Positions 302-53,854 of a DNA stretch of 64,000 nucleotides are shown in pieces. A program made the position numbers and the translations under genes. This DNA comes from Sphingosinicella sp. LHD-64 (lineage in GTDB: Bacteria > Pseudomonadota > Alphaproteobacteria > Sphingomonadales > Sphingomonadaceae). Every line of letters begins with the position of its first letter. Within the stretch, counting starts at the first letter, position 1. Below the pieces are notes generated by a model. The model was given only the letters and a program-made list of their open reading frames with translations, ran no database searches and was not told the DNA's origin. Where the stretch lies: positions 1,302,001 to 1,366,000 of the forward strand of contig NZ_JAVIFV010000001.1 of NCBI RefSeq assembly GCF_031157375.1, in the 5' to 3' direction.

Positions 302-312
302 GGCGCCTATCT

Positions 313-549
313 AGGGCCCAGACCCATGATCGGCAACGGCCGTGACGGAGCGGATTTTGGGTCAGGGCAAGGAGCGAGGAGGGAGCGATGCTTGGCGCAT
401 CGTGACCGACGAGCGACGCTGCCCTGGCGAAAAATGGGCAGGTGCGAATGTCCCGCGGACATTCGCGGCCATGCCGGGGGCATGGCGACCTGCCCATGCC
501 CGCCTTCTCCGGGCGATTACGACCATTGCCGATCATGGGTCTGGGCCCT
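313..549. repeat. Structured inverted-repeat element A (237 bp)
   Basis: The ends are a 31-bp inverted repeat (313-343 against 519-549) that matches at 29 of 31 positions. Both differences would still pair as G-U in RNA. Inside are a 7-bp stem (363-369 with 420-426) around a CGATGC/GCATCG hairpin (386-391 with 397-402), and a perfect 10-bp stem (434-443 with 488-497) that encloses two hairpins (444-453 with 457-466, and 468-475 with 479-486). The boxes GGCAAGGAG (366-374) and CGACGCTGCC (414-423) recur in element B at 41058-41232 with almost the same spacing. No open reading frame of note fits it. It could be a non-autonomous mobile element or a structured RNA. I cannot see a target-site duplication. 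Confidence 0.8.
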
Positions 550-1402
550 CGGCTTCTACGAGCGAATATCCAGCCGGATATTCCCCTCGACGCATGGCCG
601 CCACCAGCGCCGCCGGATCGGCGCCCGCCTCGCGCAGGCTGGCGATGGTCGGGGCGCCGTGCCGCTTGGCGAGGCGCGACCCGTCGGCGCCGGTGAGGAG
701 GCCGTGATGGTGGTAGCGCGGGGTCGGCAGGTCGAGCAGCGCCTGGAGCAGGCGGTGGACGTGGGTCGCGGCGAACAGGTCCTGCCCCCGCACGATGTCG
801 GTCACGCCCTGCGCCGCATCGTCGACGGTGACGGCGAGATGATAGCTCGCCGGCGCGTCCTTGCGGGCGAGCACGATGTCGCCGAACGCTTCGGGGGTGG
901 CGATGATCTCTTTGTCGTCGTCCATCCAATTCGGCATGCTCCCGCGTCCGCGGGAGAACACGGGAAGGGCTTTCGTCATGTCGAGCCGCCAGGCATGGGG
1001 CCGGCTTAGATCGCGATCGACGAGCCCGCGGCACGTCCCCGGATAGACGGGACCGTCGGGCCCATGCGGCGCCGCCACGCTCGCGGCAATGTCCGCGCGG
1101 GTGCAGAAGCAGGGATAGACCAGACCTGCAGCCTTCAGCTGGTCCAAGGCTGCGGCGTACAGATCCAGCCGCTCGGACTGGTAGATCATCTCCCCGTCCC
1201 ATTCGAGCCCGAGCCAGATCAGGTCCTCGAGGATCGCATCGACATGCTCGAGGCGCGACCGGCCGGGATCGATGTCCTCGATCCGAAGCAGAAAGGTCCC
1301 GTCCCGTTCCCGGGCGAAATCATGGGCTGCCAGCGCCGAGAAGGCGTGCCCCAGATGGAGCCGGCCGGTCGGCGAGGGAGCGAAGCGGGTGACGGGATGC
1401 AT
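533..1402 (-). CDS. gluQ: Glutamyl-Q tRNA(Asp) synthetase
   Basis: The 289-residue enzyme activates glutamate and attaches it to the queuosine at position 34 of tRNA(Asp). It is a shortened glutamyl-tRNA synthetase: the catalytic Rossmann domain is present with FAPSPTGRLHLGH at residues 7-19 (HIGH signature) and RLAKRHG near residue 243 (KMSKS equivalent), while the anticodon-binding half is missing, as expected for the family. The zinc site is visible as CFC near residue 98 with a later Tyr and Cys. The stop codon (533-535) lies inside the right terminal repeat of element A, so the last five codons (GPDP plus stop) are repeat-derived. A true GltX is encoded at 31224. Confidence 0.95.
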   Translation of the reverse strand: MHPVTRFAPSPTGRLHLGHAFSALAAHDFARERDGTFLLRIEDIDPGRSRLEHVDAILEDLIWLGLEWDGEMIYQSERLDLYAAALDQLKAAGLVYPCFCTRADIAASVAAPHGPDGPVYPGTCRGLVDRDLSRPHAWRLDMTKALPVFSRGRGSMPNWMDDDKEIIATPEAFGDIVLARKDAPASYHLAVTVDDAAQGVTDIVRGQDLFAATHVHRLLQALLDLPTPRYHHHGLLTGADGSRLAKRHGAPTIASLREAGADPAALVAAMRRGEYPAGYSLVEAEGPDP

Positions 1403-41009: not shown

Positions 41010-41057
41010 CCCCCACAGGGCAGGGCGGGACGAACCGAGCCTTCCGCGCGATAGGTG

Positions 41058-41232
41058 AGGGTCCAGACCCGCTATCCATGAGGTCGTGACAGGGCTTGGC
41101 CGGGATGCATGGCAAGGAGGAGGACCGTGAAAAGCGGGCTGTGCAGCCCGCTTGAGCGGTCCGACGCCGCCAGGCGCCCGGAAAAGCCCTGCCCCGAAGG
41201 GGTGGGACGCATGGATAGCGGGTCTGGACCCT
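41058..41232. repeat. Structured inverted-repeat element B (175 bp)
   Basis: Termini are a perfect 23-bp inverted repeat (41058-41080 with 41210-41232) starting AGGGTCCAGACCCGC. Next inside is CAGGGCTT/AAGCCCTG (41090-41097 with 41184-41191), then GGACCG/CGGTCC (41122-41127 with 41157-41162) and a perfect 10-bp hairpin AAGCGGGCTG/CAGCCCGCTT (41132-41141 with 41144-41153). The boxes GGCAAGGAG (41111-41119) and CGACGCCGCC (41162-41171) match element A (313-549) with similar spacing. It lies between ybgC and the end of the DUF3089 gene and supplies two bases of that gene's stop codon. Confidence 0.8.
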
Positions 41233-42379
41233 AACGCCGGGCGAAGGCGGCGGCCTGCGCGCCCACCAGCCGGACGAGGTCGCCCTGCGCCACCGCCATG
41301 TCGATGAGGTGGGTGCCCCAGCCCGGATTGCGCTGCCCGAGCAGATAGACGTCGCCCGGTATCCGGTCGGTCCGCGCGTCGGCCGGATCGGCATTCACGG
41401 TGAGCGCGAGATAGCCGACCTGTCCGCTATGGACGCAATTGCCGGAGACCAGGCCTTCGGTGTGCAGGAACTGCGCCGGCGGCGGGCCGGTGCGCGACCA
41501 GGTAATCGGCTCGGCGCCCGGCTGCAGCGGCGCCGCGGTGAACCAGTAGGAGTCGAGCCGGCCGGTGCCACCTCCGAGGTTGGCGGGGTTGGTGCAGGCC
41601 GCCGTCATGCCCGGCCGCACGGCGCGGCCGAACATCGATCCGTCCGGCGGCGGCGCATCGGCGCGGAAGGTCATGTAGCTCACCACGCAGCCGGTCTGGC
41701 CGGCGCGGGTGCAGAGCGGGGTCTGGCGGAAGGTCCCCCCGGTCGTCTGCCCCTCCGGCACCTCGACTGCCCAGCCGAGCAGGATCGCCGACACCATCTG
41801 CGCGGCCGCCGGCTTACCCTCGATCTCCTGCGCGATCAGGCCCTGGAGGTGGATCATGCCCTGGCTGTGGCCGATCAGGACATAGGGCCGGCCGCGATTG
41901 TAGTGCGCCATGTAGTGGCGCCAGGCGGCGAGCACGTCGCGATAGGCGAGCGCCATCACCGGGGCGACATCGGTGCCCTGCGCCATCGCGAAGATGCTGG
42001 CGAGCGTCGCCTGGCGGTAGAGCGGCGCATAGGTCTTGCAGACGCTGCCGAAGCGCGCGAGCTGCACCGCGGCGGCGGCCTGCTCCTCCGGCCCGGGATT
42101 CATGTCGCTGTTCAGCGTGCTGTCGCGCGACAGGGTCGGATAGACGTAGAAGCAGTCGATCGGCGGATCGGCCGCCGGCGCGCTCCGCGTCACCGGCCCG
42201 TAGCCGGCCGGCGTGAGGTCGGCCACCTGCTGCGGCGCGCCGCAGGCGTCGGCGCGGCCGGGCAGGCAGAGCCAGCTCGCCTGATTGGCATAGTCGACCT
42301 GTGCCGGCGCCTCGGCCGGCGCCTGCGCCGCGGCAGGGACGGCGAGACCCAGAGCCAGAACGGCGAGCAGCGTCTTCAT
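41231..42379 (-). CDS. Secreted DUF3089 alpha/beta-hydrolase
   Basis: The 382-residue protein has a Sec signal (MKTLLAVLALGLAVPAAAQ, cut near 19) and an alpha/beta-hydrolase-like domain with the nucleophile elbow VLIGHSQGMIHLQGLI near residue 148. DUF3089 segments include IDCFYVYPTLSRD near 75, VCKTYAPLYRQATLAS near 114 and SYMTFRADAPPP near 216. Lipase or esterase activity is plausible but unproven. It sits 10 bp behind ruvB in the same direction, interrupting the usual ruvB-ybgC-tol order, and ends at element B. Confidence 0.83.
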   Translation of the reverse strand: MKTLLAVLALGLAVPAAAQAPAEAPAQVDYANQASWLCLPGRADACGAPQQVADLTPAGYGPVTRSAPAADPPIDCFYVYPTLSRDSTLNSDMNPGPEEQAAAAVQLARFGSVCKTYAPLYRQATLASIFAMAQGTDVAPVMALAYRDVLAAWRHYMAHYNRGRPYVLIGHSQGMIHLQGLIAQEIEGKPAAAQMVSAILLGWAVEVPEGQTTGGTFRQTPLCTRAGQTGCVVSYMTFRADAPPPDGSMFGRAVRPGMTAACTNPANLGGGTGRLDSYWFTAAPLQPGAEPITWSRTGPPPAQFLHTEGLVSGNCVHSGQVGYLALTVNADPADARTDRIPGDVYLLGQRNPGWGTHLIDMAVAQGDLVRLVGAQAAAFARR

Positions 42380-42389
42380 CGGCACTCCT

Positions 42390-43415
42390 TCACTTCGCAT
42401 CGAACAGGCCGGCCTGGCCGGTGCTGGGCTGGGGCAGGCCGAGATGGGTCCAGCCGGGGCCATTCAGCATCCGCCCCCGGGCGGTGCGGGCAATGAGACC
42501 CAGCTGGATGAGGTAGGGCTCGATCACTTCCTCGATCGTGTCGCGCGGCTCGCTGAGGCCGGCGGCGAGCGTCTCCACGCCGACCGGGCCACCGCGATAG
42601 ATGTCGGCGATCATGTGGAGGTAGCGGCGGTCCATCGCGTCGAGGCCGAGATGGTCCACCTCCATCCGGTTGAGCGCGGCATCGGCGACCTTCGCGTCGA
42701 CCTCGCCGTCGCCTGCGGCCTGGGCGAAGTCGCGCACCCGGCGGAGCAGCCGCCCGGCGATCCGCGGCGTGCCGCGCGAGCGGCGCGCGACCTCCTTCGC
42801 TCCGTCCCCGGTGAGGTGAAGCCCGAGCAGCCGCGCCGCACGGCGCACGACCTGCTCCAGCTCGTCCACGGTGTAGAAGTTGAGCCGCACCGGAATGCCG
42901 AAGCGGTCGCGCAGCGGCGTCGTGATCAGCCCCTGCCGGGTCGTCGCCCCCACCAGGGTGAATTTGGGGAGGTCGATCCGGACCGAGCGGGCTGACGGCC
43001 CCTCGCCGATCATCAGGTCCAGCACCCGGTCCTCCATCGCTGGATAGAGGATTTCCTCGACCGCCGGCGCGAGCCGGTGGATCTCGTCGATGAACAGGAC
43101 GTCGCCGTCCTCGAGATTGGTCAGCAAGGCGGCGAGATCGCCCGACTTGGCGATCACCGGCCCGGAGGTGGCGCGAAAGCCGACGCCGAGCTCGCGCGCG
43201 ATGATCTGCGCCAGCGTCGTCTTGCCCAGCCCCGGCGGGCCGAAGAAGAGGACGTGGTCGAGCGCGTCGCCGCGGGCCTTGGCAGCCGCGATGAACACGC
43301 GCAGATTCTCCCGCGCCGCCTTCTGTCCGACGAACTCGTCCAACGACTTCGGACGCAGGGCGGCGTCCAGGTCCTCCGGGCGGCGTTCGGGGGTAGTGAG
43401 GCGGTCCTGGTCCAC
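42390..43415 (-). CDS. ruvB: Holliday junction branch migration helicase RuvB
   Basis: The 341-residue AAA+ motor drives Holliday junction migration with RuvA. Walker [15 protein letters not shown] near residue 57, Walker [14 protein letters not shown] near 105, sensor 1 [20 protein letters not shown] near 145 and the C-terminal winged-helix (about 255-341). Start GTG 43415, giving [20 protein letters not shown], is preferred: it matches family length and lies downstream of the half-element 43428-43472; a TTG at 43451 would add 12 residues encoded by that repeat. ruvA and ruvC are not in the window. Confidence 0.95.
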
Positions 43416-53761: not shown

Positions 53762-53854
53762 TGGCGGAGACGGAGGGATTCGAACCCTCGGTAGGAGTAA
53801 TCCCCCTACGGCGGTTTAGCAAACCGCTGGTTTCAGCCGCTCACCCACGTCTCC
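53762..53854 (-). tRNA. tRNA-Ser (anticodon GCU)
   Basis: Minus-strand cloverleaf with the 7-bp acceptor stem GGAGACG/CGTCTCC (5' end 53854), D-arm GGTGAGCGGCTGAAACC, anticodon stem GCGGT/ACCGC around TTGCTAA (anticodon GCT), a long class II variable arm GTAGG/CCTAC, and T-arm GAGGG-TTCGAAT-CCCTC. The discriminator base is G and CCA is encoded (53764-53762). It reads AGC/AGU serine codons. No other tRNA was seen in the window. Confidence 0.97.

Follow-up and report, generated by a model that had tools for sequence, protein, structure and literature searches.

The window, a stretch of 64,000 nucleotides of Sphingosinicella sp. LHD-64, contains two elements, A and B, which raise the question of whether they are mobile DNA, a structured nucleic acid, or both. 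An earlier note had described them, at 313-549 and 41058-41232, as sharing near-identical inverted termini and two boxes, with unrelated hairpins between the boxes. All these features were found at the places described, as were the box gaps of 39 nt in A and 42 nt in B. The bounds were right as to place, but the inserted DNA proper is 314-548 and 41059-41231, with the TA outside. The CAGGGC proposed as a shared second stem turned out not to be the same feature in the two elements: it begins at 363 in A, only 3 nt ahead of box 1, and at 41090 in B, 21 nt ahead of that box. The pattern AAGGAG-N20..50-CGACGCYGCC matched twice in the window and never in 100 dinucleotide shuffles. Folded as RNA, A (z -11.6) and B (z -13.2) both surpass 200 shuffles. 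As in MITEs, both have terminal inverted repeats and are shorter than 500 bp (235 and 173 bp), too short for a transposase gene. The core model R1 does not detect B, so that the kinship of B rests on its ends, its boxes and its empty site. The coordinates of all features are collected in Table 1.

Table 1. Coordinates of elements A and B and of their parts in the window.
Feature	Coordinates	Strand	Remarks
Element A proper	314..548	+	235 bp, module M1 forward; empty TA site in relatives
Left TA target copy of A	312..313	.	within CTAG; T-A in 16/16 relatives with letters on both sides (L297: 6 bases only)
Right target copy of A	549..550	.	now TC, A changed
Left terminal inverted repeat / stem P1 of A	314..345	+	inverted repeat
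Right terminal inverted repeat / stem P1 of A	517..548	+	inverted repeat
Module M1 of A (stem P2, tandem G.A helix, hairpin)	356..430	+	model R1 78.8 bits, E 1e-22; A itself absent from the alignment of the model, close copy L003 present there
Box 1 of A, GGCAAGGAG	366..374	+	5' strand of the G.A helix
Replaceable hairpin of A, CGATGC/GCATCG	386..402	+	
Box 2 of A, CGACGCTGCC	414..423	+	3' strand of the same G.A helix as box 1
Second dispersed repeat in A	434..497	+	unrelated, three-way junction; occupies the place of module M2 in full-length copies
Element B proper	41059..41231	+	173 bp, single-module version; empty site in G186/L304
Left TA target copy of B	41057..41058	.	now GA; L304 reads TTAACG at the site
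Right TA target copy of B	41232..41233	.	inside the stop codon of ORF 41231..42463(-)
Box 1 of B, GGCAAGGAG	41111..41119	+	
Box 2 of B	41162..41171	+	CGACGCYGCC pattern

The joined flanks of A were searched in 26 genomes of the genus, and a single match crosses the join in 22 of the 25 others. Twenty-four loci were given to the junction alignment; 18 are shown, and all 16 with letters on both sides read T-A, eight of them as CTAG. The window reads TA-element-TC at this place. The target of A is thus TA, duplicated, and its right copy changed. The in-frame stop on the minus strand at 548-550 has been lost at A, and the ORF 533..1402(-), in a frame read from window coordinates rather than relative by relative, runs into the terminal repeat and ends inside it. 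At B, the closest relative (G186) reads TTAACG and the window GA-element-TAACG. A and B each entered a TA lying at the stop codon of an adjacent ORF, and this TA was duplicated; for these two copies both the empty site and the target-site duplication are established, with one of the two TA copies changed in each. Since relatives carry the empty sites, both window copies are TA insertions and can be regarded as MITE-like and non-autonomous; the elements are almost certainly mobile at TA. The suggestion that A and B are non-autonomous mobile elements is borne out by these empty sites, by the many dispersed copies and by ends that resemble known IS termini, as described below.

The family is much larger than the two members first proposed. 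The genome of the window (3.89 Mb, 8 contigs) holds three further A-type copies, one of them split over two contig ends, while no second copy of B was found there by blastn. A 341-base query taken from one copy matched in 17 of 41 genomes, namely its own, 14 of 24 others of the same genus and two from other families of the order; in this sample a genome contains as many as 16 matches. A scan of named genome contigs with a core pattern returned at least 119 stretches, whose taxon counts are not frequencies; the 80 titles listed include Sphingomonas, Novosphingobium, Sphingopyxis, Sphingobium, Hephaestia, Aureimonas, Gordonia, Propionibacteriaceae and Muribaculaceae, plus chance matches. From the fetched loci we extracted at least 115 distinct elements of 155-391 bp, each defined by a core match, inverted ends scoring at least 14 and 30 bases of flank. 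They fall into classes of 262-283 bp (74 elements), 183-200 bp (15), less than 183 bp (17) and other lengths (9); in 111 of the 115 the distance from the left end to the core is 76-86 nt. Among the 74 copies of 262-283 bp, those that can be placed by title or as members of the own genus are mostly from Sphingomonadales, L119 being from a Muribaculaceae MAG; the 74 include 18 scanned loci (L194-L230) outside the assignment by title. Three loci (L165, L172, L179) come from a record titled Bacillus sp. 2B10, whose label was taken as given, and have ends of the alphaproteobacterial type.

These 115 elements were chosen for their inverted ends, and the association of ends and core was therefore checked independently on 96 pattern matches, 23 near locus ends being skipped. 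Inverted ends were found at 79 of 82 cores with the GAGGAGGG box, at none of 14 pattern matches lacking the box and at 1 of 237 random positions. Boxes and stems thus co-occur with the termini, at least for the M1 core on which the comparison was run, and the refuting outcome named in the earlier note, a failure to do so in other copies, was not seen.

Other searches delimit what each query can detect. The box pair is a weak detector, with 26 matches in 298 genomes of the family vs 11 for the reversed control pattern; 12 of the 26 were judged by reading to lie inside elements and the other 14 were left unopened. A strict core pattern, too narrow to gauge spread, matched only in the genome of the window among 289 genomes of the class. 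No blastn match to a 271-bp copy was obtained in the plasmid and phage collections; short core matches are present on Streptomyces plasmids. In a search for longer elements sharing these ends, one Sphingomonas end occurs at 26 places in six genomes; nine of the places were opened and read for partner ends and cores, and no longer element was noted at them. Near 1460-1520 of L238 a lone end with a GTGACGG junction, at which no partner repeat or core was found, is apparently a remnant. Near 1467-1482 of L263 (own genome, contig C3) a single 12-bp terminal tip has TA on both sides (TA-GGGTCCAGACCC-TA); it adjoins an 876-bp IS5-like element with other ends and is perhaps a collapsed family copy.

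The fold was derived from full-length copies (262-283 bp). The alignment, A1, contains 31 of the 36 non-redundant copies, L099, L110, L114, L119 and L202 being left out by choice. In its consensus, the terminal repeats pair as an outer stem (P1); inside it are stem P2, which carries module M1, the short hairpin P3, and stem P4, which carries an inverted module M2. Compensatory change, with both sides changed, was observed in 77 of 98 pairs, and 94.5% of the cells are paired. The covariation score is 0.530, compared with a mean of 0.164 for shuffled and 0.068-0.093 for slid alignments. The structure is thus conserved with compensatory change, and arm-to-arm copying of DNA can give the same for Watson-Crick stems. 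The window elements depart from this plan: A has another repeat (434-497) in place of M2, and B is a shorter, single-module version.

The repeat that replaces M2 in A forms a three-way junction, AGGT-hairpin1-AGCC-hairpin2-GGCGACCT, with variable stems. Further copies were found at L005-L008 and L014-L016, and inside elements at L129 (two copies), L139, L202 and L229, so that it sits inside family elements in A and four other loci. Nine copies were read whole; in five of them the loops of hairpin 1 (CCCCCGG) and hairpin 2 (CCGGGGG) are reverse complements of each other, which makes kissing loops possible. The copy in the window has no match in Rfam.

Wobble pairs were then counted in the 36 non-redundant copies, with p-values that overstate the significance, as they treat cells of related sequences. 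Stem P2 contains 34 G.U and 7 A.C pairs (p 2.5e-5), and stem P4, where the module is inverted, 9 G.U and 31 A.C (p 7e-4); the helix and the hairpin of M2 itself have no preference (8 vs 9 and 9 vs 7). Each module's stem hence admits wobble pairs on the strand of that module, as expected of a folded single strand, and because of this enrichment the core most likely acts in such a form. The asymmetry is mostly C-to-T on one arm, and a mutation bias may explain it. The terminal stem covaries with no strand preference (30 G.U, 35 A.C), as expected if one arm had been copied from the other. This is what would be seen in an ordinary MITE family of internally deleted ISs, with a functionless inner palindrome in which switches of template from one arm to the other in replication, rather than selection, would preserve the pairing. 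We consider this explanation rather doubtful as a full account of the family. It gains from L256 (1244-1521; Sphingomonas gilva, the genome of L139), in which M2 is flipped inside its own arms relative to the other A1 copies, as an intramolecular inversion at the arms would give, which points to hairpin events at the level of DNA.

What this explanation does not accommodate is the helix of M1. Read outward from the hairpin in the 115 elements, positions 1-2 are A.G then G.A (110 and 103 of 115), and the same order recurs at positions 5-6 (104, 99), 8-9 (102, 59) and 12-13 (49, 67), the tandem G.A steps being separated by G-C pairs. This order of pairs indicates that the two boxes are the two strands of a repeated tandem G.A helix; the earlier note had listed them as two boxes, and they are the opposite strands of one helix. 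Copying from arm to arm would make perfect complements and cannot keep a non-canonical helix of this kind, in which A.G or G.A is the commonest pair at the tandem positions; moreover, GAGGAG together with CGACGA recurs in other phyla. The hairpin stem and most of the 3' box had been built into the scan pattern and the element finder, so that their conservation among scanned loci is in part a product of the search; the scan pattern did not include GAGGAGG, which lies on the 5' side. A protein-coding core was considered because the M1 box resembles a ribosome site before an ATG, and was rejected by inspection only, since the length of the hairpin varies out of frame and B has no ATG.

Beyond the helix, the hairpin is replaceable: copies from Streptomyces and other Actinobacteria carry other stems on the same helix. 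Model R1 was run at E up to 1e-4 on genomes from two phyla. In the phylum to which a Gordonia belongs it detected the core in 22 of 296 genomes, and in that of a Muribaculaceae MAG in 4 of 395; both figures include the centre genome, and copies per genome were taken from the best 16 and the best 12 scored candidates respectively. These cores vary more in their inner part than the scanned ones, and in some matches the inner part of the helix is altered while AAGGCGCGAGGAG and CGACGAGCAACG are retained. Inverted ends scoring at least 14 were present at 14 of 26 (Gordonia) and 7 of 16 (Muribaculaceae) loci vs 1 of 130 and 0 of 80 controls, 4 and 6 loci being skipped as too short; the one-sided window misses reverse-strand matches, and beyond this the shortfall of inverted ends could be real. 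The ends differ again at these loci (e.g. CTAGTGTCGCGTGT, CTAGTGGGCCTCCG and AGGGTCTGTTAACA). Together, these results show that the core is recognisable in Alphaproteobacteria, Actinobacteria and Bacteroidota, with the ends and most stems replaced and the pairing kept. As non-canonical pairs are conserved across phyla, the core is probably under selection.

The ends were compared with those of transposons. DNA similar to a degraded IS5-like element of Sphingomonas sp. Leaf32 is present in 593 plasmid records. The eight plasmid elements that were opened are annotated as IS5-family and end in TAGG(G/C)TCAGGAC(C/T)C; the one that was Pfam-scanned contains PF13340 and PF01609/PF13586. These ISRhsp4-like IS5-family ISs have a terminal repeat, TAGGGTCAGGACCCATTGAT, which matches the ends of the Sphingomonas elements, and differ from them in their length of about 840 bp and their transposase gene. 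An IS630-type element of 1056 bp on the Sphingopyxis plasmid pRW412b has a DDE_3 transposase (PF13358) and the ends TAGAGCGGTTTTCGA; a similar element of 1058 bp on the Sphingobium plasmid pTomRC1a, annotated as hypothetical proteins, has the same ends. In both, the ends TAGAGCGGTTTTCGACC match those of the 190-bp class, from which these elements differ in length. In the genome of the window, where the search covered this IS5-type only, PF13586 gave one match, below the family cut-off and with other ends.

When a match was defined as at least 13 of 20 nt, the two types of ends were distributed by size class. In the 250-310-bp class, 66 of 154 ends match IS5 (1 when shuffled), 88 fall below the IS5 threshold and 6 match IS630. 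In the 183-200-bp class, 24 of 30 ends match IS630 (0 when shuffled) and 1 matches IS5. None of the 34 ends of elements below 183 bp matches either, and 7 of 12 ends of other lengths match IS5. All six IS630-like ends of the long class come from three elements, L061, L171 (Hephaestia caeni) and L199, in each of which both ends are of this type and the body has two modules. Mainly on the evidence of these two-module elements with IS630-like tips, we infer from the sequences that core and ends have been exchanged between transposons.

Taken as a whole, we favour, with a probability of about 75%, the reading that these are MITE-like elements moved in trans, in which a structured core has been combined with different transposon ends. 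The transposase of a resident IS would cut at the terminal repeats and insert the element at TA, for which stop codons and CTAG would offer sites near genes. Judging from the match of the termini, the helper would most likely belong to the IS5 family (ISRhsp4-like) in Sphingomonas and to the IS630 family for the 190-bp class. A core joined to the ends of different transposons would be kept for its own sake, and selection on the folded single strand, be it RNA within read-through transcripts or a hairpin formed by DNA during replication, would maintain the inner structure. A stronger form of this reading is tentative: the core might be a nucleic-acid module in its own right, selfish or functional, that occurs in at least three phyla and persists through repackaging between ends from unrelated families of transposons. 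With the same reserve, it may be seen as a "passenger" structure: one that lasts longer than the transposons carrying it and that, in either half of the element, is read on its own strand in the form of a folded single strand.

The gene context bears on the function of the structure. Related copies are mostly intergenic. According to a simple home-made gene finder, among 96 elements (19 of the 115 were dropped for unusable flanks) the predicted flanking genes are divergent for 30, tandem for 43 and convergent for 20, and the other 3 are inside a predicted gene. Many copies abut predicted gene ends, and the copies occur in all gene orientations, which also agrees with an ordinary MITE family. 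A mobile structured or regulatory RNA gene (terminator, mRNA stabiliser or RNase III substrate) spread by transposition would explain the large branched structure, the strong covariation and the wobble of each module on its own strand, and insertion at a stop codon would place the element in 3' untranslated RNA. The numbers above give no clear preference for 3' ends, and in Rfam 15 no element of the window or of its relatives matches at the gathering score; seven loci searched at E up to 0.5 gave two weak matches far below it. We therefore regard a mobile RNA gene or regulatory RNA of this kind as rather unlikely. The sole match in the window at the gathering score is a tRNA gene at 53765-53854 (-). 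A dedicated terminator was tried as a candidate and set aside, as the gene orientations speak against it. The structured RNA family suggested by the earlier note has very strong covariation in its favour, and its members may be transcribed.

A further alternative, very improbable, is a REP/REPIN-like element of large size that a REP-associated tyrosine transposase would mobilise: the two hairpin modules in inverted orientation, and the variable stems alongside short constant tags, do resemble paired REPs, and CGTC-tagged REPs are given as frequent in alphaproteobacteria with no known transposase in the part of PMC3733652 consulted, but the long terminal inverted repeats, the TA duplication and the length of 155-391 bp fit DDE transposons and not REPs of 20-40 bp, many ends match IS5 or IS630, and the elements are not 20-40-bp palindromes with a GTAG/CGTC tag.

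The three alternatives overlap with parts of the favoured reading, that of MITE-like elements moved in trans with a structured core and exchanged ends. A MITE is commonly regarded as the deletion derivative of a single IS, of which the inside should decay and the ends be kept. In the present family the inside can be recognised across phyla and it is the ends that vary. If the favoured reading is true, a gene-less element is able to carry a selected structure through changes of transposon, which can be tested, and the family provides a model from nature for nucleic-acid helices in which repeated tandem G.A pairs hold the strands together.

In the open-licence papers searched, we recognised no description of these elements. 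Several known systems resemble them in part. The CIR repeats of Caulobacter, as summarised in the relevant part of a review (PMC2229807), are intergenic, alphaproteobacterial and of conserved inverted-repeat structure; compared by description and not by sequence, they differ in their length of about 110 bp, their GANTC methylation site and their build of two arms and a linker. CGTC-tagged REPs, in the sections of PMC3733652 consulted, are short tag-bearing palindromes with varying stems and no assigned transposase, found in alphaproteobacteria and several phyla; they differ in having stems of 8-9 bp, and those sections mention neither long terminal inverted repeats nor a TA duplication. Correia/NEMIS and ERIC share the terminal inverted repeats and TA termini and form long stem-loop transcripts; they differ in that the relevant part of PMC2229807 lists them for Neisseria and enterobacteria and describes no exchanged ends. 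Among the systems compared from their descriptions, the nearest parallel is RUP of Streptococcus pneumoniae. In the same part of that review (PMC2229807), RUP differs in its length of 107 bp, in having no G.A-helix core described, and in being given for one species with one matching IS named; like the family described here, it is small, gene-less and intergenic, uses a TA target and has an IS630-like terminal inverted repeat.
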